Of a stretch of 63,427 bases of DNA, positions 53,009-57,942 are shown piece by piece; within the stretch, counting starts at the first letter, position 1; each line of letters starts with the position of its first letter. The stretch is from NCBI GenBank assembly GCA_025062195.1, contig JANXAS010000009.1:12796-76222 (forward strand), given 5' to 3'. The translations under genes were made by a program, and so were the position numbers. This DNA comes from Armatimonadota bacterium. GTDB lineage: Bacteria; Armatimonadota; Fervidibacteria; Fervidibacterales; Thermosaccharophagaceae. The notes beneath the pieces were generated by a model. The model had not been told where the DNA came from and searched no databases. It saw nothing but the letters and a program-made list of their open reading frames with translations.

Positions 53009-53887
53009 TTAAACGCCTTTGATTATTTTGTCCATGCGTGCGCTCACATCACGCAGGTATGCTTCATTACCGCCGCTAAGTTCTGCCGTCAGGTAACCAC
53101 TATAACCGATCTCAAGCAGTGCTCTCCTGACAGCCTTCCAGTTCACATCGCCTTCAAGGAGCATGACAAACTCATTTCTGTCACGCTTGAAGTCTTTCAA
53201 GTGGACTTTGACTATGCGCTTTCCAAGCGTCAATATCCAATCCTCCGGGAAACCAAACTTGACTATGTTGCCAACATCAAAGTAAGCACGCAGGCGTTTG
53301 CTCCCAAACTCGTCAACATACCTTGCGAACTCAATCGGGCTGAGCAGGAAGTTGTTCCATACATTCTCAACCGCAATTGTTACCCCCAGTTCCTCAGCTA
53401 TTGGCAGTATGCGCTTGATGTTGCGTTGGCTCCGTTCATAGCATTCGGCGTATCTCACTTGAGCGTTGACTATTCCCGGAACGAGAAGGACTGCATCGGC
53501 GCCAACAATTTTTGCAGTGTGCAACGCCCTCTTGAGCCCTTCCAAGCCTGCCTCAATCACTTTTTCGTCGGCGCTTGAAAGCGGTGCATGCCACCCACCA
53601 TAGATGATTGAGTGCAGCTCAATCCCGACATCTTCAGCGACTTCGCGCAGCTTCTTAGCAGCTTCTTCATCCATTGGCGGAATTTCAAGACCATCAAACC
53701 CAACATCCTTGGCGAGCTTAATTCTGTCCCTGAGAGGCATGCCCGATGGCAGCATGCCAAGCAATATCGCCTTTTTGAACGGGACAACCTCCTCACCGGT
53801 GGAGAGATTCCCCAAACTCGTGCTGATAGCTGTGCCAGTAACCGCGGAAATAAAAGAGCGCCTGCTTAATCGCCAATCAGCTTTCAC
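53009..53887 (-). CDS. Tat-exported sugar phosphate isomerase/epimerase-like TIM barrel
   Basis: A 292-residue protein with a twin-arginine signal (SRRSFIS at about 8-14, then a hydrophobic region). An AP-endonuclease-2/xylose-isomerase-like TIM barrel follows: GFDGLEIPPMDE, then VENVWNNFLLSP, FDVGNIVKFGFP and VHLKDFK, the usual metal-site positions. Export suggests it acts on an extracytoplasmic substrate. GTG 53887 has GAGGTG seven bases upstream and the gene follows the MauE/DoxX-like gene after 14 bases. Confidence 0.85.
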   Translation of the reverse strand: MKADWRLSRRSFISAVTGTAISTSLGNLSTGEEVVPFKKAILLGMLPSGMPLRDRIKLAKDVGFDGLEIPPMDEEAAKKLREVAEDVGIELHSIIYGGWHAPLSSADEKVIEAGLEGLKRALHTAKIVGADAVLLVPGIVNAQVRYAECYERSQRNIKRILPIAEELGVTIAVENVWNNFLLSPIEFARYVDEFGSKRLRAYFDVGNIVKFGFPEDWILTLGKRIVKVHLKDFKRDRNEFVMLLEGDVNWKAVRRALLEIGYSGYLTAELSGGNEAYLRDVSARMDKIIKGV

Positions 53888-53901
53888 CGCACATCACCTC
53901 A

Positions 53902-54378
53902 CTAACCATGTTCATCACTGCGCTTGCGCATCTTTGAGAATAAATTCTCAATTGAGGCAAATGGAACATTTGCAAATACTAACACCATGGCACTGAGAAG
54001 CATCGCAATATTTCTTAAAACGGTGTGCCAGCCGATTTTATCACCCCCTTCAAGGAATCCGAAGCAACCGCATGCCATCTCAACGCCGCGAAACAGATTT
54101 ACAGTTATTCCGATGATGAACGCAACGAGCATCAACGCTATGACTGCTGCGGCGCTCTCAACAGCATAGCCAATTATGAGCAGGATGCCGGCAATGAATT
54201 CAACCCAGGGTAGCACAATGGAGAAAATGGGGATGAAAGCCTCCGGAAGCACTCTGTAGCTCTCAACTACGCTTACAAAGATTAATGGGTCATCAATTAT
54301 CTTCCCCAGACTCGCAAAGACGAATATGCTGCCTATCCCGACTCGCAATACGAGACACAATACCTTACGCCAACCCAT
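53902..54378 (-). CDS. MauE/DoxX-type redox-associated membrane protein
   Basis: A 158-residue four-helix membrane protein. RVGIGSIFVFASLGKI starts the fold, PWVEFIAGILLIIGY follows, and the extracytoplasmic turn contains the conserved pair of cysteines in ACGCFG. This matches the MauE/DoxX family, membrane proteins that work with disulfide or thioredoxin-like partners. ATG 54378 has GGTGGTG upstream; ATG 54408 is in frame. It lies 204 bases after the candidate selenoprotein gene, same strand. Confidence 0.82.
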   Translation of the reverse strand: MGWRKVLCLVLRVGIGSIFVFASLGKIIDDPLIFVSVVESYRVLPEAFIPIFSIVLPWVEFIAGILLIIGYAVESAAAVIALMLVAFIIGITVNLFRGVEMACGCFGFLEGGDKIGWHTVLRNIAMLLSAMVLVFANVPFASIENLFSKMRKRSDEHG

Positions 54379-54582
54379 CAGAATTGCACCACCCATTGGC
54401 TTATTCATCTTTTCTTTGGACGATTGCGATGAGCAGACTACGGGCGACAAACAACACAGCAAGCACACAACAGCTTTTTGCTAACTCGTATGAGACACAG
54501 CAGCGAATGCTCAGCACGCCAGCAATCTTGCCTGACATAGTTCGTTGTGCTTACACCGTTTGGCTTTTCGTCGGGAAAGCTT

Positions 54583-55125
54583 TCAATTAGATTCATGCTC
54601 ACTTTGCTCATCGCTCATCCCCTTCTCAATCGGGCGCTTGTTTGAGACCCATTCAGTCCATCCGCCGGGCATAACAAACACCCTTTTGTAGCCAAGCTTT
54701 GCCAGTCGCTCCGCGACCGATATGCTATGTGGTCACGAACCACCGGCGCAGTAAACCACGATGGTTGCATCCTTTGGGAGCTTCACCTTCGCAGCTTTGA
54801 ATGAGGCTTCAAACTCCTTTTGAGCTGCCGGCAGGTTGATTGCTCCGGGTATGTGACCTTTCGCATAATCGGTGGCTGAGCGTGCATCAACAAACTTTGC
54901 GCGGCGAGAGATGAAGAGCATCCACACCCGTTTAAACTCAATCACTTCAACACCTTTTGGGAGATGCCTAAGCCACGGTGGCTTCTCACGCTCCTCAAGT
55001 ATTTCTTTGAGTTCGCTGTAGCGCAATGGTATACCATCCGGACGGATGACATTCACTGCAAGCCCAACTATTAAACTTGCGGCAATAATTGACGCTGCCC
55101 CGACAGCGATGCCGATAATTCGCAT
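54583..55125 (-). CDS. Rhodanese-like membrane-anchored protein, candidate selenoprotein (in-frame TGA)
   Basis: Read conventionally the frame ends at TGA 54733-54735 and gives a 130-residue truncated rhodanese. Reading TGA as selenocysteine gives a 180-residue protein that ends at a second TGA (54583-54585). An N-terminal helix (about 4-25) anchors it. The rhodanese domain starts near residue 85 (FVDARSATDYAKGHIPGAINLP). VVYC carries the catalytic Cys126, followed by A-G-G-S and codon 131 (TGA), then PHSISVAERLAKLGYKRV and MPGGWTEW. The downstream part is exactly the rest of the rhodanese fold. Related proteins have Cys-x4-Cys-x2-Ser there, so TGA replaces a cysteine. ATG 55125 has GGAG upstream. 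It could also be a nonsense mutation or sequencing error. Confidence 0.72.
54695..54726 (-). promoter_or_regulatory. Candidate bacterial SECIS hairpin
   Basis: After TGA come CCACAT, then AGC, ATA, TCGGTCGC, loop GGA, GCGACTGG, CAAA, GCT. AGC pairs with GCT, a 3x4 internal loop follows, then an 8-bp stem (two G-U pairs) closes a GGA loop. The loop starts 21 bases after the TGA and begins with G. This agrees with the known rules for bacterial SECIS elements: a loop of 3-14 bases, G among the first two, 16-37 bases after UGA. Confidence 0.55.
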
Positions 55126-55336
55126 TGCCTCATCTCCAAAGCAGCTTGTGAGATATTCTTTTACCGAATTTTGAGCGGTGTGAATGTTGCCAGCAATGCA
55201 AGAGAAAAGCGAACGATATTTGCTCACCATTACTGGGCATTTTATACGCCCCTGAAGTTGCCCTGCCCGTCTTCGCTCAAAAGTTTTTCGGTCTTCAGCA
55301 TGGCATACACTTCAAGCCCGTGATTTCACAGCTTGC

Positions 55337-55822
55337 TCAATCCTCTCCGAACAACTTGAGCACAAGCTTTGCGATTCTTTCTCCCAACGCGAAGCATTGC
55401 GACCTTGAGCGTGCGTCGGGAAACCCAATGCTCACTGGTCCGTAATGGTCGCCTTGCACGGCGCCTTGGACAATCATGCCATGTATGAGCATCATCTGCA
55501 AAATGCCCAATACGGTCGTCTCATTCCCGCCACCAACATTAGCTGACGAGGAAAACGCCCCTCCAACTTTACCTTCAAGTTGCCCATGATAGCGGACGCT
55601 CTCATCAAACAAGCGCTTTATCTCGCTTGCCGGTAAGCCGTAATAAGTTGGCGAGCCGACGATTATCCCGTCAGCTCTAAGTAAATCTTCAATGGTGCAT
55701 TCTTCAACTCGCTTAAGTTCAACTTTGACACCGGGCACATTACGGACTCCTTCAGCAACTGCTTCAGCCATCGCCTGAGTGTTTCCAGTCCGGCTGTAGT
55801 AGACAACGAGCACTGTCGGCAA
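55337..55822 (-). CDS. Flavodoxin-like (WrbA-type) FMN protein
   Basis: A 161-residue flavodoxin-fold protein. The FMN phosphate loop is YYSRTGNTQAMAEAV at 8-22, and GSPTYYGLPASEIKRLFDES is the WrbA-like loop. Probably an FMN-dependent NAD(P)H:quinone reductase or an electron carrier. The start is TTG 55822, supported by a strong GGAGGTG seven bases upstream and no usable ATG nearby. The gene lies 211 bases ahead of the rhodanese gene on the same strand. Confidence 0.9.
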   Translation of the reverse strand: MPTVLVVYYSRTGNTQAMAEAVAEGVRNVPGVKVELKRVEECTIEDLLRADGIIVGSPTYYGLPASEIKRLFDESVRYHGQLEGKVGGAFSSSANVGGGNETTVLGILQMMLIHGMIVQGAVQGDHYGPVSIGFPDARSRSQCFALGERIAKLVLKLFGED

Positions 55823-56129
55823 GCTTTTTCACCTCCATATGCGCCTTCGCAGTTGAGTGTAAGCCAATCCCTGCTCACAAAGCAAGCCGATCACATTTAG
55901 GAATTATGCAGGTTGGATGCGAAGCAGCCGCCAAACTGCCATCATCTTTCGTTTTTTGGCGGGCTGTCGTCCGCCAATGCAAAGCAACCCCACCAGCTCA
56001 ATTCCTAACACCTATAGAAAGCGCAAACATTGTGAGTGATGCAATAGCATGTGCAGACATCGTTGTGTCCAAATTTAAAGTCACTTTTTGGCACATCTTG
56101 TGTGCCCCCATATGCTCACAATTCGCTCA
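55823..56129. other. Intergenic region of about 300 bases
   Basis: No gene, repeat or RNA structure supported. It holds the promoter of the flavodoxin gene and the 3' end region of the leftward isomerase gene. Confidence 0.4.
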
Positions 56130-56912
56130 TCACTGTGCTATGAACTGTTCTAAGAAGCGCTTTGCAAATCTTATCCCAAAGTAGTATCGCTCTCCGAGCC
56201 AGGTCTCGCTGTGCGGCTCTATTGATATTGCGCCATCGTAACCATGCTTGTAAAGGATGGCAAAGATACTGCCCCAATCAATTTGATCCATGCCAGCTGG
56301 TGGGTCATCAAAGCGCTTTCCGTCTATTTTCAAGCATCCCTTTGCATGCAGATGAAATATCCGCCCACCATAGTCTCGCAGCTCACGCAGGTAGTCTATG
56401 CCCTCGTAAAATGGGTGCGATGGGTCATACTTTATCCCGGCTGTTGGCAAACGCTCAAGGACAACATCCCACGCCTCGCTCCCGATAATGTGGTTTGCCC
56501 AACGGCAATTGTAGAAAGCGAACTTAAGCCCATATTCATCGGCTCGCTCAACGAATGGAGCGAGCAAATCGCAAGCGCGCATCGCCATTTGCCGTATCGT
56601 CTCCTTGTGGTTTATCCCGCCGCCTGTTATGACCACCTTAGTGCCGAGCTCACTTGCAAGCTCAATTGTCCGAGCAAGCTCTGCAAGGCATTTTTCCCTC
56701 TCCTCAGCCTCATCGCTCAGATAGTTTCTTCCCCACAAACCTATGGCGGCAATTTCAACATTGTAGCGGTGGCACATTTTCAAATACTCTTTGTAGCGCC
56801 CCTCCCACCATTCAAGGTTATCGTGAATTGCTATCTCAACGCATGGTATACCCTCAGACGAGGCAAACTTCAGATCTTCTTCGCTGCCATTGGTGATGAA
56901 GCATAGACGCAC
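56130..56912 (-). CDS. Sugar phosphate isomerase/epimerase family protein
   Basis: A 260-residue xylose-isomerase-like TIM barrel. GIPCVEIAIHDN follows the first strand, VVITGGGINHKETI marks strand four, KYDPSHPFYEG carries metal-site residues, and IFHLHAKG and ISIEPHSE close the barrel. No signal peptide, so cytosolic. Start GTG 56912 has AGGTG upstream. Divergent from a similar protein at 57.1 kb; their upstream regions share 184 bases. Confidence 0.87.
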   Translation of the reverse strand: MRLCFITNGSEEDLKFASSEGIPCVEIAIHDNLEWWEGRYKEYLKMCHRYNVEIAAIGLWGRNYLSDEAEEREKCLAELARTIELASELGTKVVITGGGINHKETIRQMAMRACDLLAPFVERADEYGLKFAFYNCRWANHIIGSEAWDVVLERLPTAGIKYDPSHPFYEGIDYLRELRDYGGRIFHLHAKGCLKIDGKRFDDPPAGMDQIDWGSIFAILYKHGYDGAISIEPHSETWLGERYYFGIRFAKRFLEQFIAQ

Positions 56913-57096
56913 TGCACCTCACCTCGCTGCAATGCAAGCTTGTGCTGCTATCTAAAAATTAGCGTGGATGTGTCCCTTCAAAGCATTACAGTTGCTGGTT
57001 ACATAAATGTGGCGCATCATGGTATGTAGAGTGAGCGATTAATCTGTCACTGACCGGTCGCTATATTTCGCCTGTGGGGAAAGTGGTGAATCAACG

Positions 57097-57942
57097 ATGT
57101 GCGGTAAGCCAACTCTCTCTTGGATTGCCGTAAGATACATTGACTCAATGGCGGAGCGCCATGAGCCATCACTTGAAGAGCTATTTCGCAAAGCTGTTGA
57201 ATTTGGGCTTTCGTTCGTTGAGCTGCACCATTGCATGTTGCCTTCGTATGACCGAAAGATGTTGAATGCTGTTTGCGGTTTGCTCTCACAGTATGGACTT
57301 GGTGTCTCGCAGCTGACATGCGCCCCCGATTTCACTCACCCGGATGAGCGCTTCAGGGAAAACGAACTTGAGCACATGAAAACAATGGTTGAGGTTGCCC
57401 GTGTGCTTGGTGCAAGCGGTGTGCGAGTTACTGTCGGGTGTGCACATGAAGGTGTGAGCTTGCAACAGGGCGTAGAGTGGGCTACCAGATACATATTGCG
57501 CCTGCTTGATTTCGCAGAGCCAAGGGGAATTAAGCTCGGTCTTGAAAATCATTACAAGGACAGGCTTTGGAAGGATGTTGACTTCGCCTTCCATCCAGAT
57601 GTCTTTCTTGAGGTCTTTCATAGGCTTGAAGATACACCAGTTGGTGTCAACTTTGATGCCTCAAATCCGCTGATGGTTGGTGAGGACCCGCTGCGCATAC
57701 TGCGCGAAGTGAAGCACAAAGTTTGGCACATGCACGCAAGCGACAGGAGAGTTGGCGAGTATCAGCACACGGTCGTCGGTGAGGGCGATGTTAACTACGA
57801 TGCGATCATGTCCGAGCTTTCCTCTATTGTCTATTGCGGCTTTATAAGCCTTGAGGATGGCAACCCGTTCGGTGATGATGGCACAAGGCGCTCGCTTGCC
57901 TTCCTGAGGCGAAAGATTGAAGAGCACTTTGGTTCCTCGTAA
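57097..57942 (+). CDS. Sugar phosphate isomerase/epimerase family protein
   Basis: A 281-residue TIM-barrel protein of the same superfamily as the gene at 56.1 kb. SFVELHHCMLPS, GLENHYKD, VNFDASNPLMVG and VWHMHASDRR give the metal-binding strands. Cytosolic. ATG 57097 follows GTGGTG. The substrate is unknown; such enzymes interconvert keto and aldo sugars or polyol derivatives downstream of the Gfo/Idh type of oxidation. Confidence 0.87.
   Translation: MCGKPTLSWIAVRYIDSMAERHEPSLEELFRKAVEFGLSFVELHHCMLPSYDRKMLNAVCGLLSQYGLGVSQLTCAPDFTHPDERFRENELEHMKTMVEVARVLGASGVRVTVGCAHEGVSLQQGVEWATRYILRLLDFAEPRGIKLGLENHYKDRLWKDVDFAFHPDVFLEVFHRLEDTPVGVNFDASNPLMVGEDPLRILREVKHKVWHMHASDRRVGEYQHTVVGEGDVNYDAIMSELSSIVYCGFISLEDGNPFGDDGTRRSLAFLRRKIEEHFGSS

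Follow-up and report, generated by a model that had tools for sequence, protein, structure and literature searches.

A membrane-anchored rhodanese of the Armatimonadota with a probable selenocysteine in its active-site loop, encoded beside a MauE-family membrane protein

In the window, the 63,427-nt stretch of an Armatimonadota contig analysed here, the gene at 55125–54583 (minus strand) very probably encodes a selenoprotein: a membrane-anchored rhodanese of 180 residues in which an in-frame TGA at codon 131 (54735–54733, minus strand) would be read as selenocysteine (Sec). This protein probably works together with a MauE-family membrane protein encoded next door, with which it likely forms a relay of either the thiol/selenol redox or the persulfide type. 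To the reading as a whole, a selenoprotein whose Cys126 and Sec131 form a relay with MauE, we assign a probability of roughly 0.7.

The reading frame starts with an ATG at 55125, which has a GGAG upstream, and ends at a TGA stop at 54585–54583. Residues 2–27 (55045–55122, minus strand) form an N-terminal hydrophobic helix, a segment also found in homologues, which is likely to be a membrane anchor. The catalytic Cys126 is encoded by the TGC codon at 54748–54750 (minus strand); it opens the six-residue loop CAGGSU within VVYCAGGSUPHS, with a C-x4-U spacing from Cys126 to residue 131. The TGA at codon 131 is the only one inside the frame, and 49 codons lie beyond it. Standard annotation would end the protein at residue 130, as the standard code reads TGA as a stop, and a functional 130-residue protein terminating at a true stop is the explanation to which we give the least credence: without the segment past the TGA the rhodanese fold would be short of three of its elements, and the sequence encoded there can still be recognised as rhodanese. 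The Pfam Rhodanese profile (PF00581) matched residues 75–161, spanning the TGA, with 77.1 bits (gathering cut-off 22.2). By itself the part before the TGA scored 48.5 bits; the remainder gave 20.3 bits, slightly below the cut-off but at profile positions 76–101, as expected for this portion of the domain. AlphaFold, run with 32 aligned sequences, confidently predicted a complete rhodanese fold plus the N-terminal helix (mean pLDDT 91.7), including a helix (132–143), a strand (148–152) and a second helix (155–161) past the TGA. The first-pass annotation had described a single TGA interrupting the rhodanese domain five residues after Cys126, with 49 further codons of rhodanese-type sequence, and this description held throughout; decay after codon 131, which it had raised as a counter-sign, was seen neither in the predicted fold nor in the post-TGA profile match. 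The closest solved structures were mostly rhodaneses and sulfurtransferases, and BH2092, one of the best structure matches, shares the C-x4-C spacing. A search of the genome's contigs for rhodaneses returned one distant rhodanese and nothing else.

Residue 131 was then compared among relatives. In the homologue alignment, all 31 remaining sequences had Cys in the column of the TGA, encoded by TGC or TGT where the present gene has TGA, which agrees with the initial claim that the TGA falls on a conserved cysteine. Both Cys126 and residue 131 were invariant in a six-row and a 32-row alignment, in which the TGA was entered as Cys and for which the rows were picked from relatives retaining the six-residue loop, more distant rhodaneses being without the second Cys. 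Two of the more distant relatives (L070 and L075) carried Gly at position 126 and retained Cys131. The nearest homologues were ~40% identical and all had Cys at 131; within the order, no closely related sequence sharing this Sec turned up, and so nothing closely related confirms the TGA. In two other genomes of the phylum, C-x4-TGA was observed at the identical column, each time followed by a conforming hairpin: these are short rhodaneses with the loops CASSTUQAS (genome G008; L084:1348–1659, minus strand) and CASPTUPAS (genome G072; L082:1240–1533, plus strand). Neither has a MauE neighbour, and their sisters in G020 and G022 carry Cys. The tree separated the Sec proteins into two lineages, with two changes of state forced by well-supported branches; judged by sequence, the G008/G072 branch is a second lineage of putative Cys-x4-Sec rhodaneses, without MauE. 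Two further candidates were discarded, one at L020, where the TGA within the match is most likely the gene's own terminal stop, and a G220 rhodanese flagged with a TGA, which has Cys at both loop positions.

The TGA lies one base from TGC or TGT, the nearest homologues are Cys forms, and the genome is a 170-contig draft, all of which would fit a Cys-type rhodanese gene whose TGA arose through a mistake in sequencing or assembly, or by a recent nonsense mutation. We nevertheless consider such an origin very improbable, since the change hits precisely the one loop position at which Sec and Cys were independently exchanged in G008 and G072, and since the genome contains both the Sec machinery and, at the required distance from the TGA, a conforming hairpin.

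The machinery was searched for in the draft genome (97% complete), and the four components that the first-pass annotation had proposed looking for were all present: tRNA-Sec with anticodon UCA (73.8 bits), full-length SelB (421.8 bits), SelA (581.3 bits) and SelD (363.6 bits), the last with an in-frame TGA of its own at the Sec site (RASG-U-ASKW). The selD gene (L015, genome contig C140:7808–8743) is itself a selenoprotein gene. Both selA and tRNA-Sec were also present in four of the four other Sec-rhodanese genomes tested (G008, G072, G032 and G005), and both were absent from three Cys-type genomes (G022, G035 and G220). The selA match in G072 was spread over several frames, and damage or poor assembly may have affected this copy.

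The SECIS-like hairpin UCGGUCGC-GGA-GCGACUGG (54702–54720, minus strand) has an 8-bp stem, UCGGUCGC pairing with GCGACUGG, that closes a GGA loop, with a folding energy of −13.8 kcal/mol over a 44-nt stretch. It satisfies the published bSECIS rules (loop of 3–9 nt, G in loop position 1 or 2, spacing of 16–37 nt, MFE ≤ −7.5; PMC13188914). The first-pass annotation had placed this hairpin 21 bases past the TGA; the hairpin and its agreement with the rules stand, and the distance needs a small correction, the 21st base being the start of the loop and the spacer from the UGA 20 nt. A conforming hairpin of at least this stability followed 1.3% of 16,716 in-frame codons in ORFs of the window, and appeared in 14 of 5000 synonymous recodings (0.28%). 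Therefore the hairpin, taken alone, is suggestive evidence for Sec rather than decisive, and a chance origin is possible. When 71-nt stretches were folded, a different pairing competed with it. A weaker hairpin, with a GGU loop at 18 nt, is found in this genome's selD gene. An Rfam scan of 50–59 kb of the window gave no match; the hairpin therefore belongs to no listed family.

Directly downstream of the rhodanese gene lies a gene for a membrane protein of the MauE/DoxX family that bears a CGC motif (53902–54468, minus strand; Pfam MauE, E = 5.7e-27), which may instead start at an ATG at 54408. This conserved partner had been overlooked by the first-pass annotation, as had the C-x4-U rhodaneses that occur independently in related genomes. 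A MauE gene was found downstream on the same strand in all the loci L050–L078 obtained from the search of the phylum. It lies less than 200 nt from the matched rhodanese segment, with L061 as the one exception, and usually at 15–150 nt. Residue 131 is Cys at all of these loci but the present one. Pairing of the rhodanese with MauE, seen for every membrane-type homologue examined, is therefore the rule, and it is the Sec version that stands out as exceptional. Two tandem C-x4-C rhodanese domains precede MauE at L022 (genome G035) and L057 (genome G061). Around the pair in the window (53009–57942) are three xylose-isomerase-like TIM-barrel genes, and a flavodoxin-like protein is also encoded among the flanking genes, which show no clear link to the pair. 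The literature search found no paper on a MauE-rhodanese pair, and a query for MauE with MauD and DoxX gave unrelated papers only.

We propose the following mechanism. With the hairpin that closely follows the UGA at codon 131 as the signal, SelB and tRNA-Sec would insert Sec there, to give a rhodanese domain carried on one N-terminal helix and probably exposed on the outer side. In the active-site loop of six residues, C126-A-G-G-S-U131, a thiol would come first and a selenol last. Cys126 would take up sulfur as a persulfide, or become oxidised, and Sec131 would resolve that state through a Cys-Sec bond, so that the loop could alternate between this bonded state and one that is reduced or persulfidated, and then swap electrons with MauE. 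We favour such redox cycling with MauE because two loop-end residues are conserved, because Sec and Cys are exchanged at the second, and because the rhodanese is strictly linked to a redox-type membrane protein. A simple sulfurtransferase would require Cys126 only. The protein could accordingly be a genuine selenoprotein that acts as an ordinary membrane-bound sulfurtransferase, with Cys126 as the persulfide carrier, Sec131 merely tuning the loop and MauE unrelated to the redox state of the loop; the rhodanese fold is in keeping with this, and its structural matches include the sulfurtransferase GlpE of E. coli. Retention of Cys or Sec at residue 131 in all family members, including those without Cys126, and the strict pairing with MauE, both of which point to a redox role, make it an unlikely account, if the most serious of the competitors. 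Sec usually stands in for redox-active Cys, and the Sec form therefore marks residue 131 as chemically active; it also provides a way to test what the uncharacterised rhodanese-MauE family as a whole does.

Selenoproteins with rhodanese domains had been noted as a precedent by the first-pass annotation, and five such forms are indeed catalogued in a 2026 review of the prokaryotic selenoproteome: UxxS, UxxG (twice), CxU and UxxxxU (PMC13188914). Form 1, the rhodanese-like selenoprotein with UxxS (type sequence WP_010941598.1; PMC13188914), has a rhodanese domain with Sec-x-x-Ser, as does the protein described here (U131-P-H-S134), a comparison made by motif only. The present rhodanese fits UxxS by motif; with its membrane anchor and MauE partner it would be a distinct member of an already catalogued kind of selenoprotein. 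The CxU family, NF041203 (rhodanese-related (seleno)protein), similarly combines a rhodanese fold with a catalytic Cys and a nearby Sec, but its spacing is CxU instead of CxxxxU, and our protein scored 61.2 bits against it, below the curated cut-off of 115. Two rhodaneses encoded in related genomes (L083:1286–1594, minus strand, genome G032; L085:1334–1645, plus strand, genome G005) contain two in-frame TGAs (FY-U-T-U-R), by which the catalytic Cys and the residue at +2 would both be Sec (UxU); their best match was NF041203, below its cut-off, and a SECIS-like hairpin follows. UxU is absent among the rhodanese motifs in the table of PMC13188914. TsoB (NF045694), a rhodanese/DsbD fusion-like selenoprotein with UxxxxU (PMC13188914), is alike in having four residues between two redox residues and in linking its rhodanese domain with a redox module of the membrane. 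It differs in that here Cys comes first (CxxxxU) and MauE is a separate gene, with no DsbD fusion, and our protein scored 57.6 bits where the cut-off is 805, which places it outside the family. A search for TsoB across the phylum gave no match above the cut-off; because the best matches cover the DsbD part only, the U-x4-U of TsoB could not be aligned to the C126-U131 loop.

By these data the prokaryotic selenoproteome would gain a rhodanese of the Cys-x4-Sec type whose membrane partner is strictly conserved. MauD and MauE belong to methylamine utilisation, and MauD is thioredoxin-like. The present pair resembles them in that a MauE-family membrane protein is encoded beside a redox-active partner, and differs in that this partner is a Sec rhodanese rather than a thioredoxin-like MauD. 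Tentatively, the anchored C-x4-C/U rhodanese and MauE might constitute a two-gene membrane redox system, widespread in the phylum, that exchanges electrons or sulfane sulfur with the membrane; the version described here, switched to selenium, could then be an undescribed selenium-dependent counterpart of the MauD/MauE-type relay.
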